Positions 9,337 through 21,145 of a stretch of 34,965 nucleotides of DNA are shown piece by piece. The DNA is taken from IMG/VR virus record IMGVR_UViG_3300009508_002371, positions 1 to 34,965 of that record; one strand, given 5' to 3'. The stretch is from a virus. Made by a program: the position numbers and the translations under genes. A model generated the notes under the pieces. That model saw only the letters and a program-made list of their open reading frames with translations. It had not been told where the DNA came from and searched no databases. Every line of letters starts with the position of its first letter. The first letter of the stretch is position 1.

Positions 9337-11076
9337 ATGCAAATACCACAAGAAATACAAAATTCAATTCCTTTTCAATATGCAAAAGATGTTTCTTCAG
9401 GTAAAATAGTTTGTGGTATTAGAATAAAACAAGCTGTTAAAAGGTTTTATAAATGGATAGAAACTGCAGATGAAGATGGTTATGAAATCGATTTTAAAAA
9501 AGCTAAAGTAGCAATAAATTTCTTTCCTGCTTTATTGAATCATACAAAGGGATCAATGGTTGGAAAACCTTTTGAATTAGCTCCATTTCAGCAATTTACG
9601 ATATTTAATGTTTTTGGTTGGGTTCATAAAAAAACTGGTAGAAGAAGAATTCGAAGAGTTTACGATAAGCGAGGTCGTGGAAATGGTAAAACAGCAGAAA
9701 TGGCTGGTTTGTGTTTGCTGATGCAAAGTTTTGAGAACGAAAGTCAATCCGAAGTTTATATAATAGCAACTAAAGAAGCGCAGGCAAAAATATGTTGGAA
9801 GTTTGCAAAAAACTATATTATTCATCAGCAGGCAAACCCAATGTTAAAAAAATTAGGTTTTAGAGTAAATCAAAGAGAAATATTCTTTGATCCATTAACA
9901 TCAGTTATGGAACCATTAGGCAAGGAGTCTAAAACACAAGATGGCTTGTCAGCTCATTTTTTATTAGTGGATGAATATCATGCACACGCATCAGATGAAT
10001 TAAAAGAAGTTTTAGAATCTTCAATGTTAAAAAGAGAACAGCCTTTAACTTATCATATTACAACTGCAGGTTTTAATGTTTTTGGAGTTTGTAAAATGTA
10101 TGAAGATATGTGTTTATCAGTATTAGAAGGTGTTAATAAAGACGATAATTTATTTATAATGATTCATGATTTAGATGAAGGTGATGATTGGCAATTGCAA
10201 GAAAATTGGGAAAAGTCAAATCCGCTTTGGAATTATGGTTTAAATCTAAATGAATTAAAAGATTCTTATAAAGATACTATCAACCAACCCAGTAAAATAC
10301 CAAATTTTCAAACAAAACATTTAAATATGTGGGTAGATGCGCCTACAGTTTGGGTAGAAAGTAAGTATTGGGATGCTTGTATGGTTCCTATTCAATATGA
10401 AAACTTTGCAAAATTAGGTAATTGTGGTGGTTTAGATTTAAGTTCTACTACAGATATTACAGCATTCGCAGTTGTAAGTGAGCCAGATGCAGAAGGTTTT
10501 AGAGATTTAGAAGTTTGGTGCTTTTGTCCTTTAGATACCATTGAAAAAAGAAGTAAAGAAGATAGAGTTCCTTATAGATATTGGTCAAATTTAAAAAGAG
10601 AAAACGCTAAAGATGATAATGATACGTATTTAATTGCAACACCTGGTAATATGGTTGATTATAGAGTTGTTTTTAATAAAGTGGAGGAAATATGTGCAGA
10701 AAGAAAAACTAAACATGTTGAGTATGATAGAAAGTTTTCAGCAGGTTTAATTTTGCCTTTGCAGGAAGCAGGTATTGAATTATCTCCTTTCACACAAACG
10801 TTAATGAATTATACAAGTCCTACAAAAGAATTTGAACGTTTATTGATGTCTGCAAAATTACGATCAGGAAATAATCCTATTTTAAAATGGATGCTTTCAG
10901 GTTGTGTTCCAATCACAGATACAAATGAAAATGTAAGATTAGATAAATCAAAATCAACAAAACGTATTGATGGAATTATTGCATCAATAATGGCAATAGC
11001 AGGAACTTTATCCGAAGAAAAAGAACCAGAAACTAGTAAATACAATGATCCAGATGTAGAGATTGTTTTAGGGTGA
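9337..11076 (+). CDS. terL: Terminase large subunit
   Basis: ATP-driven packaging motor and nuclease, 579 aa as expected for the Terminase_1 group. The ATPase half has Walker A RGRGNGKT (about 112-119) and Walker B FLLVDEYHAH (about 208-217, with Asp-Glu). The RNase-H-like nuclease half shows metal-binding acids in NCGGLDLSSTTDITAF (about 367), VEYDRKF (about 463) and KRIDGIIAS (about 543). In HK97-like phages the portal gene usually follows directly; here an 8.9-kb insert separates them. Confidence 0.96.
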   Translation: MQIPQEIQNSIPFQYAKDVSSGKIVCGIRIKQAVKRFYKWIETADEDGYEIDFKKAKVAINFFPALLNHTKGSMVGKPFELAPFQQFTIFNVFGWVHKKTGRRRIRRVYDKRGRGNGKTAEMAGLCLLMQSFENESQSEVYIIATKEAQAKICWKFAKNYIIHQQANPMLKKLGFRVNQREIFFDPLTSVMEPLGKESKTQDGLSAHFLLVDEYHAHASDELKEVLESSMLKREQPLTYHITTAGFNVFGVCKMYEDMCLSVLEGVNKDDNLFIMIHDLDEGDDWQLQENWEKSNPLWNYGLNLNELKDSYKDTINQPSKIPNFQTKHLNMWVDAPTVWVESKYWDACMVPIQYENFAKLGNCGGLDLSSTTDITAFAVVSEPDAEGFRDLEVWCFCPLDTIEKRSKEDRVPYRYWSNLKRENAKDDNDTYLIATPGNMVDYRVVFNKVEEICAERKTKHVEYDRKFSAGLILPLQEAGIELSPFTQTLMNYTSPTKEFERLLMSAKLRSGNNPILKWMLSGCVPITDTNENVRLDKSKSTKRIDGIIASIMAIAGTLSEEKEPETSKYNDPDVEIVLG

Positions 11077-11156
11077 TTTGTTAAAATAAATACTAAACCA
11101 AACGAACACCTACAGTTTACGATTAATTATATACGGTGTTCTTAAATGTAAAAATT

Positions 11157-11339
11157 ATGCAAGAAAATTTTAAAGAAGAACTTACACATCAGGAAAAATT
11201 AGAGTATTGGAAAAAATATGACCCTATACACTACAGCGAAATGACAAGCGACCCTTGTGGGCATAACACAGAATCTAGTTGGTTTGGTATAATTATTTTT
11301 TTATTGGCAGTAATAACGTTCTTAATTTTTATTTTTTAG
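11157..11339 (+). CDS. C-tail-anchored small membrane protein, 60 aa
   Basis: Start taken at 11157 because the spacer 5' of it (GTGTTCTTAAATGTAAAAATT) recurs nearly intact before the gene at 15706, which marks the cassette edge; the earlier ATG at 11136 lies inside that repeated spacer. A charged N-terminus (HQEKLEYWKKYDPIHYSEMT) precedes one C-terminal membrane span (WFGIIIFLLAVITFLIFIF). First unit of the cargo array after terL. Function unknown. Confidence 0.55.
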   Translation: MQENFKEELTHQEKLEYWKKYDPIHYSEMTSDPCGHNTESSWFGIIIFLLAVITFLIFIF

Positions 11340-11378
11340 AACGGCTACGGGTATGTTGTCGTTTATTAATAAAAAAGA

Positions 11379-11546
11379 ATGAATAAAATAGCAATTATAG
11401 GACATAATAATACAGGACTAACCACAACGTTCATGTTTATGAAATGTTGCGAGTTTGACAACGAGGAATTTCCAACGGAAATTCAGAAGTTGGCAAAGAA
11501 GCAACTACCAACGAACAAAGCACGAACCAAAAGCAATTTTTTATAA
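11379..11546 (+). pseudogene. Truncated gene fused into a repeated element
   Basis: A 55-codon frame opens MNKIAIIGHNNTGLTTT, which looks like the start of a nucleotide-binding or Rossmann-type protein, then runs at 11426 straight into the 131-bp repeat that recurs at 13787. In the repeat the frame reads MFMKCCEFDNEEFPTEIQKL in both copies, then diverges after a 1-nt indel. This is best read as a gene whose 3' part was replaced when a spacer or neighbouring cassette was joined in. It could still make a short peptide. Confidence 0.45.
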
Positions 11547-11557
11547 ACGGTGTTGGC
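11426..11557 (+). repeat. Long cassette-boundary repeat, copy 1
   Basis: 132 bp matching 13787-13917 with about four substitutions and one 1-nt indel by eye. It contains a perfect 8-bp hairpin (GAATTTCC-AAC-GGAAATTC) and ends in a short unit bounded by CCAAC (11508-11512) and GTTGG (11552-11556), with ATAAACGGTGTTGGC at the right edge. The shared frame MFMKCCEFDNEEFPTEIQKL shows a synonymous GAG/GAA change, so part of it may be former coding DNA. Confidence 0.7.
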
Positions 11558-11612
11558 AACTGATAAAAAGCCACATTAATTTTGATAAAAATTAAAATAC
11601 ACAACAATTGAA

Positions 11613-11635
11613 CGATTAAAAACTACCTTTAATCG
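11613..11635. repeat. Hairpin upstream of the 11734 operon
   Basis: CGATTAAA (11613-11620) and TTTAATCG (11628-11635) form a perfect 8-bp inverted repeat with a 7-nt loop, just left of the tandem operators. It could be a further regulator site or a terminator-like barrier to transcription entering from terL; no T-run follows, which argues against a terminator. Confidence 0.4.
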
Positions 11636-11639
11636 AATA

Positions 11640-11694
11640 AACGTAAAATAATTACGTTTTATAGTTGTTTATCGTAAAATAATTACGATATTTG
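11640..11694 (+). promoter_or_regulatory. Promoter with two identical palindromic operators
   Basis: The 15-mer CGTAAAATAATTACG occurs twice (11642-11656 and 11673-11687) inside longer palindromes (11640-11658, 11671-11689). Centres are 31 bp apart, three helical turns. A promoter-like pair, TTG (11665-11667), 19 nt, GATATTTG (11687-11694), lies between and against them, so a dimeric repressor on both sites would block it. The 63-aa HTH protein in the operon is the natural candidate. Confidence 0.65.
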
Positions 11695-11733
11695 TATAAG
11701 CAATAATGCTAAAACAATTTTAAAATAAATATT

Positions 11734-11922
11734 ATGGACTTTATTAAAGGATTTTTTTCAGAAGAAGTAGCACAAGAAGAAAGATTAAACGTTTTAAAAC
11801 ACATTGAAGAAAAAACAGCTTACGGTGTTAATTTTACAGATGCAGTTGTAGTTGAGGGTGAACCAATTGATAGTTTTGTCGGTGTTTTACCAAGGTGGGA
11901 TGTTAAATTGATTAGAAAATAA
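11734..11922 (+). CDS. Hypothetical protein of a self-regulated cassette, 62 aa
   Basis: Not recognised. Starts MDFIKGFFSEEVAQEERLNV and ends with GVLPRWDVKLIRK. First gene of a two-gene operon with its own promoter and operators upstream and a terminator after the second gene. The TAATG overlap with the HTH gene implies coupled translation. The regulator-plus-small-protein layout recalls toxin-antitoxin or moron units, but no toxin fold is recognisable. Confidence 0.6.
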   Translation: MDFIKGFFSEEVAQEERLNVLKHIEEKTAYGVNFTDAVVVEGEPIDSFVGVLPRWDVKLIRK

Positions 11923-12113
11923 TGGAAATAATTAATCAAAAAATAAAAGAGCTTTACAAAAATGATAAAGCTCTTTTTGCAGAAAAGATAAATGTTGCTC
12001 CTAAAAATTTATCTAAAAAGATAAAAACGGTTGAAAATAAAATTGAGTTTGTAAATGAGTTTCTAAACTATTTAGATTTAGAAGTAATAATAATCTCAAA
12101 GCCACAACAGTGA
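11922..12113 (+). CDS. Small XRE-like HTH regulator, 63 aa
   Basis: The whole protein is little more than a helix-turn-helix: IKELYKNDKALFAEKINVAP, then KNLSKKIKTVENKIEFVNEF. It follows the 62-aa gene with a 1-bp overlap and is followed by a terminator that overlaps its stop. The likely role is autorepression through the paired CGTAAAATAATTACG palindromes. Confidence 0.65.
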   Translation: MEIINQKIKELYKNDKALFAEKINVAPKNLSKKIKTVENKIEFVNEFLNYLDLEVIIISKPQQ

Positions 12114-12125
12114 GGTGGCTTTTTA
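12098..12125 (+). terminator. Intrinsic terminator of the 11734 operon
   Basis: AAAGCCAC (12098-12105) pairs with GTGGCTTT (12115-12122) across a 9-nt loop, and the right arm runs into a T-rich tail. The hairpin overlaps the stop codon of the HTH gene. It isolates this mini-operon from the methyltransferase gene downstream. Confidence 0.75.
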
Positions 12126-12131
12126 TTTGTT

Positions 12132-12215
12132 GCCAACGGACAGCTATAAGATTAAGCGATAGCGACCCGCAGGGTTAATTTTATAGCGTGTTAGTTACTG
12201 TGTGTAAGCGTTGGC
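12132..12215. repeat. attC-like palindromic spacer, site A
   Basis: Outer boxes GCCAACG (12132-12138) and CGTTGGC (12209-12215) are perfectly complementary. A 4-nt gap leads to an inner stem GCTATAA (12143-12149) / TTATAGC (12181-12187), extended by ATTAA/TTAAT; the right gap is 21 nt and starts GTGTTAGTTACTG. The same geometry with a different inner stem occurs at 14241. It separates the 11734 operon from the first methyltransferase. Confidence 0.65.
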
Positions 12216-12234
12216 TTAATGAGTGTAGTAAAGG

Positions 12235-12250
12235 GTTGCTTTTTTGCAAC
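12235..12250. repeat. Small hairpin before methyltransferase 1
   Basis: GTTGC-TTTTTT-GCAAC, 29 bp upstream of the start codon, inside a 5' flank that is nearly identical before both methyltransferase genes (second copy 14353-14368) and has a wobble version at 16875-16890. It may act in the mRNA leader or be part of the cassette boundary. Confidence 0.5.
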
Positions 12251-12279
12251 TGTTTACGATAATAAGAAAATAAAGAATT

Positions 12280-13497
12280 ATGAAACCAATAAATGTAGTA
12301 TCACTTTTTAATGGAATGAGTACAGGACATACTGCACTTGATAACCTCAATATTCCAGTAGGAAACTATTATAGTAGTGAGATAAAACCACACGCAATAG
12401 AATTAACACAATACCACTACCCAAACACGATACAAGTTGGCGATGTTAATAATTGGAAAGAATGGGATATTGATTGGAAAAGTATTGATTTGGTTTTAAG
12501 TGGTTCGCCTTGTAAAGATTTATCTATTGCCGGAAAGAGAAAAGGAATAAACGGATCTAATAGTGGTTTGTTTTGGAAATTTATTGAAATACTTAACCAT
12601 ATTAAAAGCCTAAACCCAAATGTTTTATTTTTTCAAGAAAACGTAGGTTCTGCACCAAAAGAAGATATTGGAATAATGAGTAGAGCAATGGGAATTTATC
12701 CAGTAAGATTTAATAGTAGTTTAGTTACTGCACAATTAAGAGATAGATATTATTGGTCTAATTTTAAAGTTACAGAATTTGGAATGTTTGACGATTTAGT
12801 TACAGATATTCCTGCACCAAAAGATAGAAAAATAATGTTTAAAGACATTTTAGAAAATGGATATACTAATAATGAAAAATCACAAGCATTATTAGAAAGT
12901 GAAGCAAAAACATTTGGTTACAAGAATATGGAAAAGTTTACCAACCTAATGAAAAGACGAACCGAAAAAGGAAAGCAATTACCAAATATGGTTTTTGTAG
13001 ATAAAGACAAAGCGAATTGTATTTTAGAAAGTGAAAGCCGACCGCATAATAACCAGGACAGTCTTTTGAAAAGAAGCGGAAAAGGATTTACAAATATTGT
13101 TTACGTTGAAAAAGAAGAAGTAAGAGTAAAAACCAATACAGTAAAAGGCTATGATGTTTTAACAGAAAATGACTGTTTAAACTTATCGTTTCCAACTTCT
13201 AAAACAAGAAGAGGAAGAGTTACAAAAGGAAAATCACCTTGTTTATTAGCAGGAAATGAGCCTTTATACTCTCTAAAAGATTATACAGTTAGAATATTAT
13301 CTAAAGTGGAATTATGCAGATTACAAGGCTTTCCAGATAATCATTGCGAAATACTAACAAGAAATAAAACAGCATCTTTAATCGGTGATGGTTGGACTTT
13401 GCCAATGGTAGAACACTTTTTTAAATACATACCAGAAGCAATAAATTTAGGAAATAAACACGAACCTTTAAAAAGCAATGAACTTGTTAAAGCGTAG
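12280..13497 (+). CDS. Solitary C5-cytosine DNA methyltransferase, 405 aa
   Basis: All core C5-methyltransferase motifs are in order: motif I VVSLFNGMSTGHTAL, motif IV GSPCKDLS with catalytic Cys about 78, motif VI FQENV with Glu about 120, motif VIII QLRDRYYWSNF about 152, then a 170-residue target-recognition region, RILSKVELCRLQGFPD and GDGWTLPMVEHF (motif X). It transfers a methyl group from SAM to cytosine in a sequence set by the recognition region. No restriction enzyme is nearby, so it probably protects phage DNA from host enzymes. Its 5' and 3' flanks match those of the second methyltransferase. Confidence 0.92.
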   Translation: MKPINVVSLFNGMSTGHTALDNLNIPVGNYYSSEIKPHAIELTQYHYPNTIQVGDVNNWKEWDIDWKSIDLVLSGSPCKDLSIAGKRKGINGSNSGLFWKFIEILNHIKSLNPNVLFFQENVGSAPKEDIGIMSRAMGIYPVRFNSSLVTAQLRDRYYWSNFKVTEFGMFDDLVTDIPAPKDRKIMFKDILENGYTNNEKSQALLESEAKTFGYKNMEKFTNLMKRRTEKGKQLPNMVFVDKDKANCILESESRPHNNQDSLLKRSGKGFTNIVYVEKEEVRVKTNTVKGYDVLTENDCLNLSFPTSKTRRGRVTKGKSPCLLAGNEPLYSLKDYTVRILSKVELCRLQGFPDNHCEILTRNKTASLIGDGWTLPMVEHFFKYIPEAINLGNKHEPLKSNELVKA

Positions 13498-13499
13498 GC

Positions 13500-13577
13500 G
13501 GAAAAAGGGAAATGTGTTGCTTTTTCGCAACTCTTTTACCGAGTGTTGGAAAAAAGCGGTGGCAGACACATTGTTAC
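13500..13577 (+). repeat. 3' flank of methyltransferase cassette 1
   Basis: This 78-bp stretch recurs at about 15070-15148. It contains a hairpin GTTGC (13516-13520) / GCAAC (13527-13531), flanked by GGAAAAAG and CTTTTACC that can extend the stem with one mismatch, then GAGTGTTGGAAAAAAGCGG. The second copy has GGTGC/GCACC in the hairpin, a compensatory change. Confidence 0.65.
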
Positions 13578-13611
13578 CTGACGAAGTGAACTGTTTAAAA
13601 TACTATTTATT

Positions 13612-13788
13612 ATGAAAAAATGGACTAAAGAAGAAGAAAAAGAATTAGTGAGGCTTACTGAAAATGCTTGGGATTGGAACTTTCCAGGTTATGATTGGGT
13701 AAGAACTCTCTTAGAAATTGATTACCCGAACGGTCGAACCGTGAATGCAATTAGGCAAAAGTACTATAGTATTTTAAATTGCAGGTAA
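13612..13788 (+). CDS. Myb/SANT-like small DNA-binding protein, 58 aa
   Basis: KKWTKEEEKELVRLTENAWD, then WVRTLLEIDYPNGRTVNAIR and QKYYSIL has the spaced Trp/aromatic residues and three-helix shape of a Myb/SANT-like domain: W-T-x-E-E at the front and RTVNAIRQKYY as the recognition helix. The protein is little more than that one domain. Its TAA runs directly into the 131-bp repeat, so gene and spacer abut. Likely a small regulator carried as cargo. Confidence 0.6.
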   Translation: MKKWTKEEEKELVRLTENAWDWNFPGYDWVRTLLEIDYPNGRTVNAIRQKYYSILNCR

Positions 13789-13917
13789 CGTTCATGTTTA
13801 TGAAATGTTGCGAATTTGACAACGAGGAATTTCCAACGGAAATTCAGAAGTTGGAAAATGAGCAACTACCAACGATAAAGCACGAACCAAAAGCAATTTT
13901 TTATAAACGGTGTTGGC
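13787..13917 (+). repeat. Long cassette-boundary repeat, copy 2
   Basis: 131 bp, near-identical to 11426-11557, with the same GAATTTCC-AAC-GGAAATTC hairpin and the same CCAAC (13869-13873) to GTTGG (13912-13916) end unit. Here the embedded frame runs 42 codons (13794-13922) without the indel of copy 1, so this copy may be closer to an original coding form. Confidence 0.7.
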
Positions 13918-13966
13918 TTTAGTTTTGGTTTAGAAAATAAAATAACAAATTATAAAGTAAATAATT

Positions 13967-14239
13967 ATGGATAAAAAGCAAATAGTAGCGTATTTAAATA
14001 TGCTAAAAACGGATATTACAACTACAAACAGGGATGAGATTATAGATTATTGCATTAATGAAACAAAACAAAATATCGAGAGAGAAACTAAAGAAAAGGA
14101 AATCTTGGAATTGTTAAGTGGGCTTGTTTCAGATGTTGGTAATCTTTTATGTGACGTTGCTGATTTAGATTATGAATGGCAACAAGCAGGTTATTATGAG
14201 GGCTCAAAACTTTATTTAAAAGAACTAAGTAAAAATTAA
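13967..14239 (+). CDS. Hypothetical cargo protein, 90 aa
   Basis: Not recognised. Helical and acidic, with a heptad-like stretch (NIERETKEKEILELLSGLVS) and an aromatic C-terminal part (DLDYEWQQAGYYEGSKLYLK). It occupies one unit of the array between the copy-2 repeat and palindromic site B, whose left box begins 1 bp after its stop. Confidence 0.6.
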   Translation: MDKKQIVAYLNMLKTDITTTNRDEIIDYCINETKQNIERETKEKEILELLSGLVSDVGNLLCDVADLDYEWQQAGYYEGSKLYLKELSKN

Positions 14240-14240
14240 T

Positions 14241-14334
14241 GCCAACGGATAAGTTTATGGCACGTTTGCCTATTTATCCGAGTGATTTGCAAATGGGCTA
14301 TAAACTGTGTTAGTTACTGTGTGTGAGCGTTGGC
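14241..14334. repeat. attC-like palindromic spacer, site B
   Basis: Same outer boxes as site A, GCCAACG (14241-14247) and CGTTGGC (14328-14334), the same 4-nt left gap and a 21-nt right gap starting GTGTTAGTTACTG. The inner stem is different but again perfectly paired: AGTTTAT (14252-14258) / ATAAACT (14300-14306). A further TTTGC/GCAAA pair lies inside. Structure is kept while sequence is not. Confidence 0.7.
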
Positions 14335-14352
14335 AAAAGGGAGTAGTAAAGG

Positions 14353-14368
14353 GTTGCTTTTTTGCAAC
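14353..14368. repeat. Small hairpin before methyltransferase 2
   Basis: GTTGC-TTTTTT-GCAAC within the same leader as at 12235, ending 28 bp before the start codon. The leader up to the start codon is almost the same as that of methyltransferase 1, although the two coding regions are not alike. Confidence 0.5.
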
Positions 14369-14396
14369 TATTTACGATAATAAGAAATAAAGAATT

Positions 14397-15056
14397 ATGA
14401 AATATAGAATATTAAATTTATATGCTTGTTTAGGCGGAAATCGTTTTAAATGGGATGAAATAGCAAAAGAATTAGGTATTGAATTAGAAGTAACTGCTGT
14501 TGAATTAGATGTTTTTTTAGCTGAAATGTACCAGCTTCGTTTTCCTGGAGATAGAGTTATTTGTACAGATGCTCATAGATATTTATTAGAACACTATAAA
14601 GAATATGATTTTATATGGAGTTCTCCACCTTGCCCAACACATAGTAAAGCAAGATTTGCAAGACACGAAACAACAAAATCTGAATACCCAGATATGAAAC
14701 TTTACCAAGAAATAATATTCTTAAAAAACTATTTTAAAGGTAAATTTTGCGTTGAAAATGTAGTGCCATTTTATGAACCATTAATTCCTGCAAAAAAACG
14801 AGGAAGGCATTTGTATTGGACTAACTTTAATTTACCAAACTCTTTAAATGAAAGAAAGTGTGCTTTTATGGAAAGTAAAAATGAAGTTCAAAAATGGAAT
14901 GAATTTCATCAAATAAATGTAAATGACTATAAAGGAACTCAAAGAAAAGATAAAATAGCAAGAAATTTAGTTGATTATGAAGCTGGTAAAACAATATTAG
15001 AAACTGCATTTGGCATTATAAAAAAACAAGATGTTAGCCAAGTTGCAATGTTTTAA
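14397..15056 (+). CDS. Compact C5-cytosine DNA methyltransferase, 219 aa
   Basis: Motif I ILNLYACLGGNRFKW, motif IV SSPPCPTHSK (Cys about 79) and motif VI FCVENV (Glu about 120) identify a C5-cytosine methyltransferase. The C-terminal part is short (GKTILETAFGIIKK), with little room for a separate recognition domain, as in other phage-encoded compact forms of 200-230 aa. No restriction partner is present. It lies between the same flanks as methyltransferase 1, and its likely role is modification of phage DNA against host restriction. Confidence 0.85.
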   Translation: MKYRILNLYACLGGNRFKWDEIAKELGIELEVTAVELDVFLAEMYQLRFPGDRVICTDAHRYLLEHYKEYDFIWSSPPCPTHSKARFARHETTKSEYPDMKLYQEIIFLKNYFKGKFCVENVVPFYEPLIPAKKRGRHLYWTNFNLPNSLNERKCAFMESKNEVQKWNEFHQINVNDYKGTQRKDKIARNLVDYEAGKTILETAFGIIKKQDVSQVAMF

Positions 15057-15064
15057 TTAAAGTG

Positions 15065-15149
15065 GAGACGGAAAAAGGGAAATGTGGTGCTTTTTCTGCA
15101 CCTCTTTTACCGAGCGTTGGAAAAAAGCGGTGGCAGACACATTGTTACT
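15065..15149 (+). repeat. 3' flank of methyltransferase cassette 2
   Basis: Second copy of the 13500-13577 element. Its hairpin is GGTGC (15086-15090) / GCACC (15098-15102), where copy 1 has GTTGC/GCAAC, so a T-A pair became G-C on both sides. The element continues as CGAGCGTTGGAAAAAAGCGG, then TAACGGCTACG, a motif that also follows the gene ending at 11339. Confidence 0.7.
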
Positions 15150-15220
15150 AACGGCTACGTATAACGATAGTTGCTGAATGAAAAATAACATTAACAAATA
15201 ATAATAAAAAAAATAAAACG

Positions 15221-15433
15221 ATGAAAGCAAAACATTTAAAAAAAGTACCAGAAGCAATTGAAAACATCTACAAACAAATCAGTGAAGCAAATTCAAATAA
15301 CCAATTTAAATGCTTTTTACCTCACTTTATTTATGTAACTGATGAAACTAGATTGCAATTAATAAAAGATGGATACAAAATTTACGAAGGTAATTGGGAC
15401 TCATTAATTACAGGGTTAATAATCGAATGGTAG
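15221..15433 (+). CDS. Hypothetical cargo protein, 70 aa
   Basis: Not recognised. Starts MKAKHLKKVPEAIENIYKQI and ends DGYKIYEGNWDSLITGLIIE-W. Small soluble protein with no motif I can name. It sits alone between the methyltransferase 2 flank and the large nested hairpin at 15480. Confidence 0.55.
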   Translation: MKAKHLKKVPEAIENIYKQISEANSNNQFKCFLPHFIYVTDETRLQLIKDGYKIYEGNWDSLITGLIIEW

Positions 15434-15479
15434 TTTTATTTTTTTGTAATGATTGAAAAACGACCATTGTAAAAAAAGA

Positions 15480-15594
15480 AACGACCTAAGCAATTATTGT
15501 TATACGGTGTTCTTAACAGTTGCCTAATAACACGTACTGATTGGTTTTGAGTAAGGCAATTGTTTAGAACGTTCGATGTATATGGTTAGGCGTT
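15480..15594. repeat. Large nested palindrome with attC-like ends
   Basis: Inner arms of 17 bp (15509-15525 and 15554-15570) pair with two mismatches around a 28-nt loop. Outside them TATAC pairs with GTATA, and outermost AACG-a-CCTAA (15480-15489) pairs with TTAGGCGTT (15586-15594). The right end contains GTTAGGC, a match to the GTTRRRY box of integron attC sites. The region 15434-15705 is otherwise empty of genes. Confidence 0.6.
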
Positions 15595-15705
15595 GTTCCG
15601 AAGGAACAAAAGACTAAGCAAGTACAGAAGAACCATTGATAAATTATTGAAGAAATAAAATAACCGAACGCTTAAATATATACAGTGTTCTAAAATGTAA
15701 AAATT

Positions 15706-15897
15706 ATGGCATTTAAAAAAGAAATTAAGTATTTAGAAGCAAAAAAATTAAAAGTAAAAGAAAGAATTTATGATTATGAAAATAGTGAATTAATAAAGCA
15801 CAATAAAACTTTACAGTATTGTGTAAAAAAGCGAAAAAAAGAGGTTAAAATCTTAGAAAATATAATTGAAGCTTTATCTAAAATTGATGATAATTAA
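15706..15897 (+). CDS. Coiled-coil cargo protein, 63 aa
   Basis: Not recognised. Almost entirely Lys/Glu-rich helix (KKEIKYLEAKKLKVKERIYD, KKRKKEVKILENIIEALSKI), probably a short coiled coil. The 28 bp before its start repeat the spacer before the gene at 11157, and the DNA after its stop (TTTTTAGAACG) matches that after the same gene, so both edges of this unit are shared with the first array unit. Confidence 0.6.
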   Translation: MAFKKEIKYLEAKKLKVKERIYDYENSELIKHNKTLQYCVKKRKKEVKILENIIEALSKIDDN

Positions 15898-15968
15898 TAA
15901 TTTTTATTTTTTAGAACGAATAAGTTTAAGGATAGTTGCGATTTAATAATTAATAAAAACAACAAAGA

Positions 15969-16283
15969 ATGACTGAAAGAGAAGAAATAATAATACTTAA
16001 AAAAGGATTAAAGTTAGCTGAATCTATATTAAAATATGAACAAGATAGAAACAAAAAACTTGTAGCTTCAAATAGAGAATTAACCAAGCAATTATCTTTA
16101 AACAGTGTTGGTTGTAGTTATTCTTTGCAAGAAGTTCGTGAAATAGCACTAGAGCTTACTAATGCATCTATGTACGGACACTCACATAAGTTAACAAGAT
16201 TTGAACTGAAGGATAAATTAAGCGAAATAAAAACCAAACACGGATTAGATTATAAAGAAGGTATAGATTATGTTTTAGAATAA
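15969..16283 (+). CDS. Helical cargo protein, 104 aa
   Basis: Not recognised. A long N-terminal helix (EIIILKKGLKLAESILKYEQ) and a second helical half (YSLQEVREIALELTNASMYG). Charged and soluble. It is followed 6 bp later by the CCAACG box of the next spacer. Confidence 0.6.
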   Translation: MTEREEIIILKKGLKLAESILKYEQDRNKKLVASNRELTKQLSLNSVGCSYSLQEVREIALELTNASMYGHSHKLTRFELKDKLSEIKTKHGLDYKEGIDYVLE

Positions 16284-16289
16284 TTACTA

Positions 16290-16388
16290 CCAACGAATAG
16301 TAATATGAAAAGTTGCTGAATTAAGCACAAAACTTGGTAAATAAGCCAAAAAATAAAACCCTTTTTTAGCGTTGGGGATTGAACGCTA
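16290..16388. repeat. Palindromic spacer, site C (weaker)
   Basis: CCAACG (16290-16295) and CGTTGG (16370-16375) form the outer pair as in sites A and B, but no matching inner stem was found. A separate 7-bp hairpin TAGCGTT (16367-16373) / AACGCTA (16382-16388) overlaps the right box. AGTTGCTGAAT inside it also occurs in the spacer near 15170. Confidence 0.45.
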
Positions 16389-16408
16389 TAACTTAAATAA
16401 ATAGTAAA

Positions 16409-16699
16409 ATGGCAAAATTTAGGAAGAAGCCTGTGGTAATTGAAGCCTTCCAATTAACTTACAATGTTGCAAAAGGCAAAGAGCCAATACCAACTTGGGC
16501 AAAAAAACAAAGCGAAAACGGTACGCTAAAAGTTACTGTTACTGATAAAATAGAAAACTCGCAGTTTGCAAGTATTAAAACACTTGAAGGCGAAATGAGA
16601 GCTGATGCAAATGACTTTATTATACAAGGTGTAAATGGCGAAATATACCCTTGTAAGCCTGATATTTTTGCAAAGACTTATGAAGCTGTAGAAGCCTAA
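16409..16699 (+). CDS. Widespread small phage protein (RKKPVVIEAF type), 96 aa
   Basis: The start AKFRKKPVVIEAFQL and end FIIQGVNGEIYPCKPDIFAK are the signature of a small protein found in many unrelated phages, often among accessory genes; its function is not known. The middle (FASIKTLEGEMRADANDFII) also fits the family. It is the only array protein clearly recognised as a common phage protein besides the methyltransferases. Confidence 0.8.
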   Translation: MAKFRKKPVVIEAFQLTYNVAKGKEPIPTWAKKQSENGTLKVTVTDKIENSQFASIKTLEGEMRADANDFIIQGVNGEIYPCKPDIFAKTYEAVEA

Positions 16700-16772
16700 A
16701 CCAAAAAGCGTTGGCAGAAAAAGGGTTTTATTTTTCTTTCGGTTAAGCACTAAAGTTAGATTAAAAGACCGA

Positions 16773-16831
16773 ACCAAGCAATTTTTTATATTACGTGTTA
16801 AGTACTGGTTGCCTAACACGTAATGCTTGGT
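16773..16831. repeat. Long hairpin in the 16700-17011 non-coding stretch
   Basis: ATTACGTGTTA (16790-16800) pairs perfectly with TAACACGTAAT (16814-16824) around a 13-nt loop, and ACCAAGC (16773-16779) with GCTTGGT (16825-16831) outside. Further elements follow: GTTGC-T6-GCAAT (16875-16890), GTGTTAGTTACTG (16903-16915) and a TGGTTTT/AAAACCA hairpin (16934-16951). The stretch 16700-17011 holds no gene I can support and looks like collapsed spacer pieces. Confidence 0.55.
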
Positions 16832-17011
16832 TTTTGAAAGGGCAACTTGTACTTAACGTATAGTAATAAGATACGTTGCTTTTTTGCAATGGATTTTATT
16901 ACGTGTTAGTTACTGCTGATAAAAAAAAGCCAGTGGTTTTGTGAAAAACCAAACCCATAACAGTGAGAATAATTTAATAAACATCTTTATTTATTGAAAA
17001 TATCATAATAA

Positions 17012-17071
17012 TTAGGTAAATACCTAAAATAAGTTGATTTTTATTTGTGTATGTTTAGGTAATTGCCTAAA
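17012..17071. promoter_or_regulatory. Two palindromic operators (TTAGG-type)
   Basis: TTAGGTAAATACCTAA (17012-17027) and TTTAGGTAATTGCCTAAA (17054-17071) are two versions of one palindrome, centres 43 bp apart, about four helical turns. They lie directly upstream of the gene at 17099, whose start context follows them. A TTTATTTG sequence between them may be the -7 box. A dimeric regulator, perhaps the HTH-bearing protein at 17484, is expected to bind. Confidence 0.6.
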
Positions 17072-17098
17072 TTTACATATAATTTAAAACCAAATATT

Positions 17099-17473
17099 AT
17101 GCAGACAGTTAAAGCAATAAAAGAAAGTGTAAATGTAAGTGAAGTACTTTCTAACGATGTAAATGAGATTTATGAAGGATGTACTGAAAAACAAGTAATT
17201 AATTGGACAACAGCCTCTAATATTTCAAGACTAATTGAAAATGTATCTAAAAGATTTTCAAATCAAGTATCTTATAGTGTTACTAATATTTATTTCGAAA
17301 TCACTAACGAAGAAGTTATTAATCTTTTTAGAGAATTATATAAATTAACTTCTAATAAATTTGTAAAATCTGTGTTAGTTTCTGTTGGTAAAAATAAAAA
17401 ATTTACAGAAAAACAATTGATTACAATAACTGATGAAATTATAAAATTTGAAAATCTAACAATTAACTTTTAA
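17099..17473 (+). CDS. Hypothetical protein of a second self-regulated unit, 124 aa
   Basis: Not recognised. Start taken at 17099, since a start at 17063 would lie inside the second operator palindrome. Sequence is helical with a C-terminal part KSVLVSVGKNKKFTEKQLIT. First of two genes 10 bp apart behind paired operators, the same plan as the 11734 operon. Confidence 0.6.
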   Translation: MQTVKAIKESVNVSEVLSNDVNEIYEGCTEKQVINWTTASNISRLIENVSKRFSNQVSYSVTNIYFEITNEEVINLFRELYKLTSNKFVKSVLVSVGKNKKFTEKQLITITDEIIKFENLTINF

Positions 17474-17483
17474 TATAAAAATT

Positions 17484-17951
17484 ATGATAACAGTAGAATT
17501 AATGGATGTATTATCCGAAGCAAAAAAAACAGGTGTTATAGGTTGGTTAAAAATAAAAGATTCAAGTAAAATTGTTTCTAATTCATCTGGTACGTATTCA
17601 ATAAACCCAACTATTTATATTCAAAATTATGTACAAAAAGAAGTAGGTGACGAAATATTAATGTTTGGAAAAAAACAACTAAATATTACTAAGCTTGAAG
17701 AAGATTTGAAAAAGTATATAGGAATGGATGTTTCTTTTTTTGTTGGAGGAATTTCTTTTAATGGTGTTTTATTAAATACAACTATCGAAACAATTAAAAA
17801 AGAACTAGATATTGATAACTCAGATTTTGCAGAAATGTTTAATTATAAAAATGCAAATAGTTTTGCAACTTCTTCTGCTTATAAAAGGATATTAAAAGGA
17901 TTAGTTTCTTTTTACAAACTAATAAAAGAGAGTGATAACATACAGCCGTAA
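17484..17951 (+). CDS. Protein with C-terminal HTH-like region, 155 aa
   Basis: The N-terminal two thirds are unrecognised. The C-terminal part (IKKELDIDNSDFAEMFNYKN, then SAYKRILKGLVSFYKLIKE) looks like a helix-turn-helix of XRE type. If so, it would be the regulator acting on the TTAGG palindromes upstream. Co-transcribed with the 124-aa gene. Confidence 0.55.
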   Translation: MITVELMDVLSEAKKTGVIGWLKIKDSSKIVSNSSGTYSINPTIYIQNYVQKEVGDEILMFGKKQLNITKLEEDLKKYIGMDVSFFVGGISFNGVLLNTTIETIKKELDIDNSDFAEMFNYKNANSFATSSAYKRILKGLVSFYKLIKESDNIQP

Positions 17952-17971
17952 AGATTGGATGGCTTTTTTTT
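17944..17971 (+). terminator. Weak intrinsic terminator
   Basis: AGCC (17944-17947) and GGCT (17961-17964) form a short stem with a long loop followed by an unbroken T-run to 17971. The stem is weak; the T-run and the position just at the end of the 17099-17951 operon are the support. Confidence 0.35.
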
Positions 17972-18033
17972 AGCAGTTGTTACTAACACCCCAATAACAA
18001 CACCTTAATAATAACTCAATAATACAAAGAAAA

Positions 18034-18849
18034 ATGAACAACAAAACTGCTATTATCGAAAAATATAAACACTTATTAAGTTTAAAATACAGTAGGAGAA
18101 CTATAGAAAGTTATTCAAATTATGTAGATGATTTTTTAAAGTTTTCAAAGAATGCACCATTAAGAATTACAAACGAAGATTTTCTAAATTATAATATTTC
18201 TTTAGTAAAAATGAAGGTAGCTGATTCAACCAGGAATGTTGCAATTTCTGGAGTTAAATTATATTTTAAATTTATACTCAGTAAAAAAATTAAAGAAAAT
18301 ATAGCTATTAGACCAAAAGACAAAAAGAAAGTTGTAAGGCATATAGAACATTTTACTTTAATGGAAAAAATAAGCAATACAAAAAACTTAAAAGCAAGAT
18401 TAATTTTAACTTTAGGGTATGGTTGTGGTTTACGTTCAGATGAAGTAAGGAGTTTAAAAAGAGCAGATGTAAATTTAAAAGAAAAATTTATTATTGTAAA
18501 TGGTAAAGGGTCTAGACAAAGAAAAATGCCAATTAGTAATAATATTATAGATCTTATTTTAGAATATGGCTTTAAATACAAACCAAAAGATTATTTCTTT
18601 AATGGTCAGGTAGTAAAAGGAATTGCAAAACCACAATATTCTGCACAAAGTATATTATCACTCGTTAAAAAGAATATTGGTGACCATAGATTTCACGATT
18701 TAAGGCACAGTTTTGGAATGAAGTTATACAGCCAAGGTATTCCTTTGGAGCAAATAAGGAAATTAATGGGCCACAAAAAAACGGAAACCACAGAAGTTTA
18801 CGCTTACGCATCAGAAAATATGCTTTTATCTGTAGAAATGCCAATATAA
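18034..18849 (+). CDS. Compact tyrosine recombinase (XerD-like)
   Basis: Second tyrosine recombinase, 271 aa. It has an N-terminal SAM-like domain (RRTIESYSNYVDDFLKFSKN) and a complete catalytic set: Arg134 (GCGLRSDEV), Lys158 (GKGSRQRKMP), His221 and Arg224 (FHDLRHSF), His247 (LMGHKK) and Tyr256 (TTEVYAY). It lacks the extra segment that marks integron IntI enzymes and is shorter than the phage integrase at 1-1185. It follows the cargo array and precedes the small genes before portal. It could act on the palindromic spacers, resolve multimers, or be a relic of the element that inserted here. Confidence 0.9.
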   Translation: MNNKTAIIEKYKHLLSLKYSRRTIESYSNYVDDFLKFSKNAPLRITNEDFLNYNISLVKMKVADSTRNVAISGVKLYFKFILSKKIKENIAIRPKDKKKVVRHIEHFTLMEKISNTKNLKARLILTLGYGCGLRSDEVRSLKRADVNLKEKFIIVNGKGSRQRKMPISNNIIDLILEYGFKYKPKDYFFNGQVVKGIAKPQYSAQSILSLVKKNIGDHRFHDLRHSFGMKLYSQGIPLEQIRKLMGHKKTETTEVYAYASENMLLSVEMPI

Positions 18850-18919: not shown

Positions 18920-19168
18920 ATGCAGCAATCTCCAGAAGAATTTAAAAGATTTATAGAATCTAAAGTGTTGCCAATAGCACAAAAATTAGGTACTCGTCAA
19001 GGTTTTTTTGAGTATTGGTTTAAAATTCTCCCAAAATGCAAGAGCCATCAAGATGCTTTTGATCTTGTAAACTTAATGCACTTAAAAATATTTAAAGAAG
19101 AAAAATACAGTTCCTTTACTTCTTTTAAAGTACAAAAATCAAGGTATTTAAAAAAAACATCATTATGA
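18920..19168 (+). CDS. Hypothetical protein, 82 aa
   Basis: Not recognised. Starts MQQSPEEFKRFIESKVLPIA with aromatic-rich helices (RQGFFEYWFKILPK). Begins 70 bp after the recombinase and overlaps the next gene by an ATGA. It opens a chain of five small genes leading to portal. Confidence 0.6.
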   Translation: MQQSPEEFKRFIESKVLPIAQKLGTRQGFFEYWFKILPKCKSHQDAFDLVNLMHLKIFKEEKYSSFTSFKVQKSRYLKKTSL

Positions 19169-19927: not shown

Positions 19928-21145
19928 GTGTTATTTTCAGCAATACAACATAATAATCAAACAAGATCTGCAGCAACAACTGTTGGGTCTTCTGGTTTGT
20001 TTAATTGGTTTGGTGGTGCATCAACCAAAAATGGAACACCCGTAAATACATCTTCAGCAAAAACACTATCCGCATTTTATAACGGAATTACAATTCTTTG
20101 TAATGATTATGCAAAATTGCCTAAATCTGTAATTATAAAAGATGGCAATAAACGCACAAAAGACACTTCACACCCAGTAAATAGGCTAATTTCTAAAAGG
20201 CCTAATCAATACATGTCTGCTTTTAATTATGATAGTATTATGATGCAATGTGCCATTTTAAAAGGAAACGCATATTCAGAAATAATAAGAAACCCTATTA
20301 CAGGTAAAATAGAATCTAGGCAATTTATCAACGAAAATGATACACCTGTTACTGTAAAGAAATTTAATAATCAGCTGTATTATCATTTTGATGGTAATGT
20401 AATTGAAGCTAAAAATATAGAACATGTAATTGGTTTTTCAGAAAACGGAATTACAGGAATTGGTGTTGTTGCTTATGCTGCCAAATCTTTAGGAGTTGCT
20501 TTAAGTAGTCAAGAATTTGCAGAAGAATACTATGCTTCAAGAGGTGTAGGAATGGCTGTTGTAACATCATCAAAAGCTATTGAAAATCAAGCAAAAATAA
20601 GATATGCAGGTGAAATTGAATCTCGTTTTACATCAAAAGCAAACTACAAAGTAGCTGTAATTGATGATGCTTCAACTTTTCAACATATTTCTTTAACGCC
20701 ACAAGAATCTATGTTTTTAGAGACCAACAAACACGCTATTGGCGAAGTTGCACGTTGGTTAAATATTCCTACACACAAATTAAAAGATACAGAAAACAGC
20801 AATTATTCCAATATGGAAAGCCAGAATATAGATCATATTTCTAATTCTGTTTTGCCTTGGTCCATGAAGTTTAGACAAGAACAATCTGAAAAGCTTTTCA
20901 CAGAAACCGAAATTGAGCAAGGATATCAAGTACAACATAATTCAAATTCTCTTTTAGAAGCTGATAAAAAAACACAAGCAGCGTTTTTATCAACAATGAT
21001 TTATGCAGGTGTTTTTACTAGAAATGAAGTAAGAGGTTTGTTTGATATGAATGAAATTGAAGGTTTAAACGATCCATTAACGGCTGTTAATATGCAAACC
21101 AAAGAGCAAATAGATGCAAATCTTAAAAAATTAAGTGATGAGTAA
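19928..21145 (+). CDS. HK97-family portal protein
   Basis: Forms the dodecameric portal through which DNA enters the head. 405 aa, the usual size; family-like stretches are SAKTLSAFYNGITILCNDYA, NRLISKRPNQYMSAF and FLETNKHAIGEVARWLNIPT. The start is GTG at 19928, since the first internal ATG would remove conserved sequence. It overlaps the protease gene by 8 bp. Separated from terL by the cargo insert, it begins the head gene cluster. Confidence 0.92.
   Translation: MLFSAIQHNNQTRSAATTVGSSGLFNWFGGASTKNGTPVNTSSAKTLSAFYNGITILCNDYAKLPKSVIIKDGNKRTKDTSHPVNRLISKRPNQYMSAFNYDSIMMQCAILKGNAYSEIIRNPITGKIESRQFINENDTPVTVKKFNNQLYYHFDGNVIEAKNIEHVIGFSENGITGIGVVAYAAKSLGVALSSQEFAEEYYASRGVGMAVVTSSKAIENQAKIRYAGEIESRFTSKANYKVAVIDDASTFQHISLTPQESMFLETNKHAIGEVARWLNIPTHKLKDTENSNYSNMESQNIDHISNSVLPWSMKFRQEQSEKLFTETEIEQGYQVQHNSNSLLEADKKTQAAFLSTMIYAGVFTRNEVRGLFDMNEIEGLNDPLTAVNMQTKEQIDANLKKLSDE

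Follow-up and report, generated by a model that had tools for sequence, protein, structure and literature searches.

The locus between terL and portal

The window analysed here is the whole of the IMG/VR virus record IMGVR_UViG_3300009508_002371, a stretch of 34,965 bases from a tailed phage. Between its TerL and portal genes lies an array of 10-11 cassettes (11108-17987) in which all the short genes are on the + strand, followed by an attI-like insertion point and a gene for a tyrosine recombinase. An earlier examination of the letters alone (the sequence-only reading) had seen a cassette region here at 11097-17100; the array is real, but it runs on to 17987, and both the attI-like point and the recombinase lie beyond that interval. 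Given these two at the array end, the cassette region is therefore better described as an apparently complete integron-like unit.

Each site in the array follows one plan on the + strand: AAC^ (the caret marks the cassette boundary), about 5 nucleotides (nt), an L' arm, a loop, a complementary L'' arm, about 2 nt and GTTRRY. A second pair of arms is formed by the cassette start (R'', GTTRRY...), which complements the end of the same cassette (R', ...YNAAC). Boundaries of this kind (AAC^) were placed at 11107, 11342, 11428, 12137, 13789, 14246, 15152, 15570, 15917, 16294, 16857 and 17987, and the features of the region are as follows.

1-1185: phage-type integrase with arm-binding domain, separate from the array-linked recombinase
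9337-11076, +: TerL, left flank of the putative inserted integron unit
11108-11342, +: cassette 1; R'' begins with GTT at 11138; open reading frame (ORF) of 60 amino acids (aa) at 11157-11339; ends AGAAC^; placed by the complementarity of its own start and end and by its AAC^ boundary
11343-11428, +: cassette 2, from its sequence a probable remnant, without R'' arm and with only the start of an ORF, nucleotide-binding-like (MNKIAIIGHNNTGLTT)
11429-12137, +: cassette 3; 123-nt attC-like site; R'' at 11552, with 12 of 13 positions of its own R arm paired; ORFs 11734-11922 and 11922-12113
12138-13789, +: composite cassettes 4/5; R'' at 12190; C5 cytosine methyltransferase 12280-13497; 58-aa ORF 13612-13788; fused near 13566-13577
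13790-14246, +: cassette 6; 122-nt site; R'' at 13912; ORF 13967-14239
14247-15152, +: cassette 7; 62-nt site; R'' at 14309; short C5 methyltransferase-like gene 14397-15056
15153-15570, +: cassette 8; L stem of 18 base pairs (bp) over 356 nt with ORF 15221-15433 in its loop; R'' at 15509
15571-15917, +: cassette 9; R'' at 15687; ORF 15706-15897
15918-16294, +: cassette 10; 16-bp L stem; ORF 15969-16283 crosses the R'' arm at 16107
16295-16857, +: cassette 11; 18-bp L stem over 502 nt with ORF 16409-16699 (phrog_419) in its loop; R'' at 16797
16858-17987, +: cassette 12; 47-nt site; R'' at 16905; ORFs 17099-17473 and 17484-17951
17976-18004, +: attI-like insertion point, ...TTACTAAC^ACCCCAATAACAACACC
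18034-18849, +: array-linked second tyrosine recombinase, 271 aa; Phage_integrase, with N-terminal SAM_4 domain
18920-19168, +: right-flank gene, found immediately after TerL in relatives without the array
19928-21145: portal

The cargo consists of the C5 methyltransferase, the short C5 methyltransferase-like gene, a Myb-like 58-aa protein and small proteins of unknown function; the two methyltransferases suggest that it may serve counter-defence. The unit with the 58-aa ORF is 96% identical to one in Polaribacter phages P12002L/S, and the gene of cassette 8 has a relative in Cellulophaga phage Ingeline. The product of 14397-15056 (219 aa) matched only the N-terminal part of the C5 methyltransferase family and may represent either an incomplete protein or a new, short version. 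At 13566-13577 a 12-nt word (ACACATTGTTAC) is common to the end of one cassette and the start of the other, and the junction looks, from its sequence, like a fusion of two cassettes. A repeat of about 126 bp stands at both 11429 and 13790.

Architecture and statistics of the sites

The recurring words and palindromes that had first drawn attention to the region are present far above chance. Strict sites (AAC^, stem, TGTT) number six on the + strand of the 7.0-kilobase (kb) array; the minus strand has one and the 27.9 kb outside the array have three, while 200 dinucleotide shuffles gave a mean of 0.25 and a maximum of 2. Stems of at least 13 bp spanning at most 1.5 kb occur four times in the array (0.04 in shuffles), with none elsewhere in the window and none on the minus strand. 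Of the boxes originally proposed, the CCAAC/GTTGG type is real, although more generally of the form YNAAC..GTTRRY; CCTAA/TTAGG was not borne out as a second class. Nor is "spacers" an exact name for the sites, which can hold genes in the hairpin loop (15221-15433 and 16409-16699) or have a gene running through the R'' arm (15969-16283). A parallel is found in the Polaribacter phages named Freya, where a 1,103-nt loop encloses two genes.

A covariance model trained on 35 sites recovered, with filters off, four window sites on which it had not been trained, all at the predicted positions (E 6e-9 to 1.7e-6). With default filters the window's own sites were missed, and the prevalence figures given below are therefore probably minima. 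The pairing of the R arms was examined in 69 cassettes picked on adjacent L-stem sites alone, so that the test is not circular: 9.64 of 13 positions paired between R'' and the R' of the same cassette, whereas permuting the ends gave 6.77 +/- 0.19 and never more than 7.36. Covariation in the L stem scored 0.614, against 0.168 when shuffled and at most 0.14 when slid, with double changes in 15 of the 16 pairs, a score that is inflated because the sites had been selected for pairing; the R-arm test is not equally affected.

Comparison of the sites also revealed near-invariant G.T pairs, at R position 11 (41/46) and at one L pair (34/35). Directly after AAC most sites have a G, as do most known attC sites (PMC2727003). 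Stems are 10-20 bp long and free of bulges, yet unbulged stems were a requirement of the search. By folding energy the + strand was the more stable in 77 of 85 sites, partly through selection.

The attI-like point and the array-linked recombinase

The array ends at AAC^ACCCCAATAACAACA (17988-18004), 46 nt before the start codon of the recombinase. The same motif forms the fixed right edge of gains and losses in the Freya phages, and by comparison this edge (AAC^ACCCC), adjoining the integrase gene, is conserved across phages. Related motifs precede the recombinases of Ingeline and Leef and those of two further sequences (L023 and L161).

All key residues of a tyrosine recombinase are present in the enzyme (R134/K158/H221/R224/H247/Y256). 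Aligned with two true integron integrases, it is missing the IntI-specific domain, an internal stretch of ~45-50 aa, and the same gap is found in all aligned array-linked relatives. The integron integrase model TIGR02249 gave 95.7 bits on the window recombinase, with a cut-off of 265; in 11 Bacteroidota genomes none of its matches exceeded the cut-off, and they break at model positions ~181-238. The best sequence matches of the window recombinase in the PDB were archaeal XerA (E 1e-23) and then IntI4 (7e-12). The predicted fold is that of a full tyrosine recombinase, with IntI4 (Z 21.1) and XerA (Z 20.6) in a tie; as structure comparison fails to separate IntI from Xer, it was left out of the decision on membership.

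In a quick tree, five of the six phage enzymes form one clade beside L027, within a large, mostly Bacteroidota family that stands apart from three host Xer proteins. Among the chromosomal members of this family that were scored, 24 had at least one strong site in the DNA fetched around them. The arrays described here suggest that members without the IntI-specific domain do run cassettes. A scan of viral contigs with the single recombinase sequence found nothing, and a two-sequence alignment as query returned only distant tyrosine recombinases.

Gain and loss of cassettes among phage isolates

Among public phages, the closest recombinase (74% identity) is that of the North Sea Polaribacter phages Freya_1 to Freya_10. 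Their genomes range from 43,978 to 48,920 bp, and the size differences are located directly upstream of the recombinase: the ten isolates carry seven distinct arrays, while over the 42.9 kb outside the array the genomes chosen to represent the seven types are within 0-4 nt of Freya_10. Types 1, 2, 5 and 9 differ from Freya_10 by deletions running from a predicted cassette end to attI, with only AAC shared. Type 8 has lost exactly one 902-bp cassette (shared CAAC), and type 6 has an additional 472-bp cassette exactly at attI. The breakpoints of all gains and losses fall within the shared AAC, either at a predicted cassette end or at attI. Isolates 2, 3 and 4 are alike over the compared array stretch, as are isolates 6 and 7. 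The paper describing the Freya phages gives the size range; text searches of it for "integron" and "insertion" found neither word (PMC8776804).

Danklef is a sister species in which the first (N-terminal) half of the recombinase gene has been replaced in all five isolates (L009 7000-7840). Across these isolates a single 781-bp methyltransferase cassette, bounded by TAAC, occurs in two states.

Exchange between phages and variation at the terL-portal junction

Cassettes are also shared between phages. Freya_10 and Danklef_1 have in common a 1,169-bp block, 99.6% identical and running from AAC^ to AAC^, in different array neighbourhoods, and P12002L and P12002S differ in blocks with edges at AAC. 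Between the window and P12002L, which belongs to a different genus, 227 bp match at 96%; on its left this match is bounded by the 12-nt homology, not by AAC^. The Freya, Danklef and P12002L/S breakpoints at AAC support the proposal that this is a cassette-exchange region with the intergenic palindromes as recombination sites, and they fall within those sites, as the sequence-only reading would require.

A conserved gene order at the terL-portal junction would have spoken against that reading, and the order proved not to be conserved. Viral contigs with TerL 68-69% identical to that of the window (L141, L144-L150) have no array, and in them TerL is directly followed by a homologue of 18920-19168. 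One genome in two contigs (L143/L161) has an array after TerL, then a different recombinase (42% identity) and a gene of the 18920-19168 type. The unit of array, attI and recombinase is thus either there as one block or missing altogether. Several contigs stop near the recombinase or the TerL junction, as expected for a variable region. One of the relatives without an array at terL (L145) has sites elsewhere on its contig (114-257, 3890-4032 and 5652-5723). A portal gene 100% identical to that of the window was found in another viral contig (L158 620-1834), which offers a route to array variants of the window phage. A TerL search of eight host-family genomes found nothing, and neither the 70-aa cassette gene 15221-15433 nor the phage-type recombinase (E<=1e-60) was found in 299 genomes of Flavobacteriaceae.

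Chromosomal relatives and the polarity of cassette genes

Related recombinases with sites of this class beside them occur in Flaviramulus, Polaribacter vadi, Olleya, Flavivirga, Chryseolinea and others. In Flaviramulus (L060; G007 C5:410767-453028), ~50 sites stand on one strand over 42 kb with genes in the canonical direction, adjoined by a domain-less recombinase (C5:409514-410302), a superintegron-like region in Bacteroidota. The search of Bacteroidota genomes with a covariance model of the spacers, which had been suggested as a check, found matches in 135 of 149 sampled Flavobacteriaceae genomes and in 15 of another 17, which were mainly from Bacteroidota and neighbouring groups; a Treponema and a Delongbacteria genome gave no match. 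One Vibrio and one Shewanella integron array gave no match. Dozens of same-class sites, on many contigs or in long clusters, were seen in Thermoflexibacter ruber (G171), Chryseolinea (G008) and one further genome (G028). Bacteroidetes integrons have been reported as very rare (PMC9024848), and current integron-finding methods appear to overlook such arrays.

Comparison of gene direction with attC direction separates the two settings: genes are inverted in 15 of 15 clear phage cassettes and canonical in 37 of 39 clear chromosomal ones.

A proposed mechanism

Judged from these sequence comparisons, the array, the attI-like site and the adjoining recombinase probably form a phage-borne integron variant, a reading to which we assign a probability of roughly 0.8. 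Among the traits by which integrons are recognised, the region has structured cassettes bounded by attC and, on comparative grounds, recombination at the R box with gain at attI and an attI adjoining the integrase. In the phages the genes are not oriented with attC and away from attI.

In the mechanism that we propose, the XerC/IntI-like recombinase (18034-18849) would recombine hairpin attC sites and the attI beside its own gene. A cassette on the + strand would read AAC^ - 5 nt - L' - arc A - L'' - 2 nt - R''(GTTRRY...) - arc B - R'(...AAC)^, and in the excised circle L'/L'' and R'/R'' would merge into one long hairpin with a stem of ~30 bp, which is the attC layout. Crossover would take place in the AAC of R', with the folded + strand corresponding to the "bottom" strand of integrons. 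New cassettes would enter as circles at attI, the downstream end of the array next to the recombinase, and cassettes would be lost through exchange of their attC with attI or with another attC. The genes, always on the + strand and inverted relative to canonical cassettes, may lie in either arc or span R''; in this orientation they would be read through by the phage operon transcript, making an integron promoter unnecessary. The strand would probably be chosen by the asymmetric spacer (5 vs 2 nt) together with the fixed G.T wobbles, and not by extrahelical bases read by the IntI-specific domain; the wobbles could mark the strand because the opposite strand has A.C mismatches there. The sites with their covariation, the breakpoints, the exchange of cassettes, the gene polarity and the missing domain are shown by sequence comparison, whereas catalysis by the array-linked recombinase, folding of a single strand and this rule of strand choice are what we infer.

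It seems probable too, if somewhat less so, that these elements make up a separate integron class that is common across Bacteroidota and mostly escapes present-day tools, with domain-less recombinases and strand choice by G.T pairs and spacer; in a phage lineage of this class, polarity would have been flipped, genes would lie in the attC loop and accessory genes would turn over so rapidly that isolates of one bloom differ.

Alternative explanations

Several observations weigh against a phage-borne integron variant. The recombinase is without a domain that has been reported as required for integron recombination (PMC9668308, PMC8138268). The Danklef recombinase gene is broken, yet the isolates still vary by one cassette, and P12002L/S have arrays with no detected relative of the recombinase. 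The boundary at 13566 is a fusion at a 12-nt homology and not at AAC^. Finally, the L-stem search accepted unbulged stems only and let G.T pass as a pair, and both the lack of extrahelical bases and the strand preference of 77/85 are in part a product of that choice.

The P12002L/S and Danklef cases mean that action of a host integrase in trans, or older events, must be possible, and the most serious alternative builds on them. In this explanation the array is a cluster of attC sites lacking an integron integrase (CALIN), the cassettes being shuffled in trans by a chromosomal integron integrase or by XerC/D of the host, while the adjacent recombinase has another role such as lysogeny. Large arrays with related recombinases are indeed present in host-family genomes, and one P12002L attC was recombined by IntI1 in E. 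coli (PMC9892861). The window, however, already has a separate phage-type integrase (1-1185), and the second recombinase directly adjoins the fixed attI-like edge of the Freya exchanges. Freya, whose recombinase is intact, shows seven arrays, and Danklef, whose copy is broken, shows two states of one cassette across the five isolates compared. A CALIN has no integrase next to its array, whereas here 18034-18849 abuts it; by a definition resting on the IntI domain, the window array would still count as a CALIN. We consider this alternative unlikely but deserving of serious attention.

Homologous or illegitimate recombination between repeated intergenic sequences would draw on the words that the spacers have in common, some of them long repeats, and on the one window junction with 12-nt homology. 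The Freya junctions, however, share only 3-4 nt, always the AAC of the predicted ends, in all seven arrays, and such recombination gives no reason for the pairing of R arms within a cassette or for covariation. It is contradicted for the Freya events and highly improbable as a general account, although it may explain the fusion at 13566.

Even less can be said for reading the stem-loops as transcription terminators or RNA elements between operon genes. Some cassette ends are terminator-like (GAGGTGGCTTTTTAT near 12110-12125) and a side role in termination is possible, but as the main function it is contradicted by stems that pair over up to 1.1 kb enclosing genes and by their link to recombination breakpoints; a search of Rfam gave no family that scored up to its gathering threshold at the array stem-loops. 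Equally implausible is an origin of the Freya differences in assembly artefacts. The array is the point at which the records were linearised and at which some metagenome contigs stop, but differing junctions with 3-4 nt shared cannot arise by repeat collapse, arrays identical over the compared stretches recur in isolates 2, 3 and 4 and in isolates 6 and 7, and the sequence added in type 6 is absent from the others.

DNA inversion of the shufflon type was rejected, all units seen having a single orientation. Xer recombinases act at the short dif site in chromosome resolution, and dif-like sites have an 11-6-11 layout; pdif/Xer modules were rejected, the sites here being two-part hairpins with 3-4 nt of shared AAC and no 11-6-11 core.

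Significance

The presence of this site class in 135 of the 149 Flavobacteriaceae genomes points to a large and seemingly unexamined pool of cassettes in major degraders of marine polysaccharides. For phages, an integron variant would offer a concrete mechanism by which unrelated phages could rapidly and precisely swap accessory genes, DNA methyltransferases among them. As the system appears to work without the IntI domain, the need for that domain in integron recombination becomes testable, and the Freya isolates, with their host and the phage gene order, are a ready laboratory model.

Comparison with known systems

The present system has much in common with integrons (IntI, attI and attC, as in class 1 integrons and the Vibrio superintegron), including one hairpin attC per cassette, the AAC/GTT crossover in the R box, an insertion point beside the recombinase gene, gene-less mini-cassettes, tandem arrays, and gain and loss at attI. 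It differs in its recombinase, which is ~45-50 aa shorter for want of the IntI-specific domain, in R arms of ~16 nt with a fixed G.T in place of 7-nt R boxes, in unbulged L stems, and in phage genes that are inverted relative to attC and may sit in the attC loop.

The sequence-only reading had suggested that the array may be an undescribed relative of integron arrays, a word to be used with caution. Integrons have been reported in phages, and among the cases are two attC sites of Polaribacter phage P12002L (Qi et al. 2023, PMC9892861). One of the two was recombined by IntI1, on the bottom strand; the phage itself was listed as having an attC cluster but no integrase, and its attC sites were described as divergent in direction. 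The P12002L array belongs to the present site class, but the rule used here gives one direction for its sites, and that study describes neither a phage-linked domain-less recombinase nor turnover at the level of isolates. In open-access papers, the recombinase-linked form, the inverted genes and the domain-less integrase were not found.

Elsewhere, the "atypical" chromosomal integrons of Treponema have an integrase that points toward attI, with canonical cassettes (PMC3607928), whereas here attI is upstream of the integrase and the cassette genes are directed toward attI. Also close are XerA, XerC and XerD and the "integron-like" simple tyrosine recombinases (PMC8138268), archaeal XerA being the best PDB sequence match of the present enzyme; what distinguishes its family from Xer is its tie to cassette arrays.

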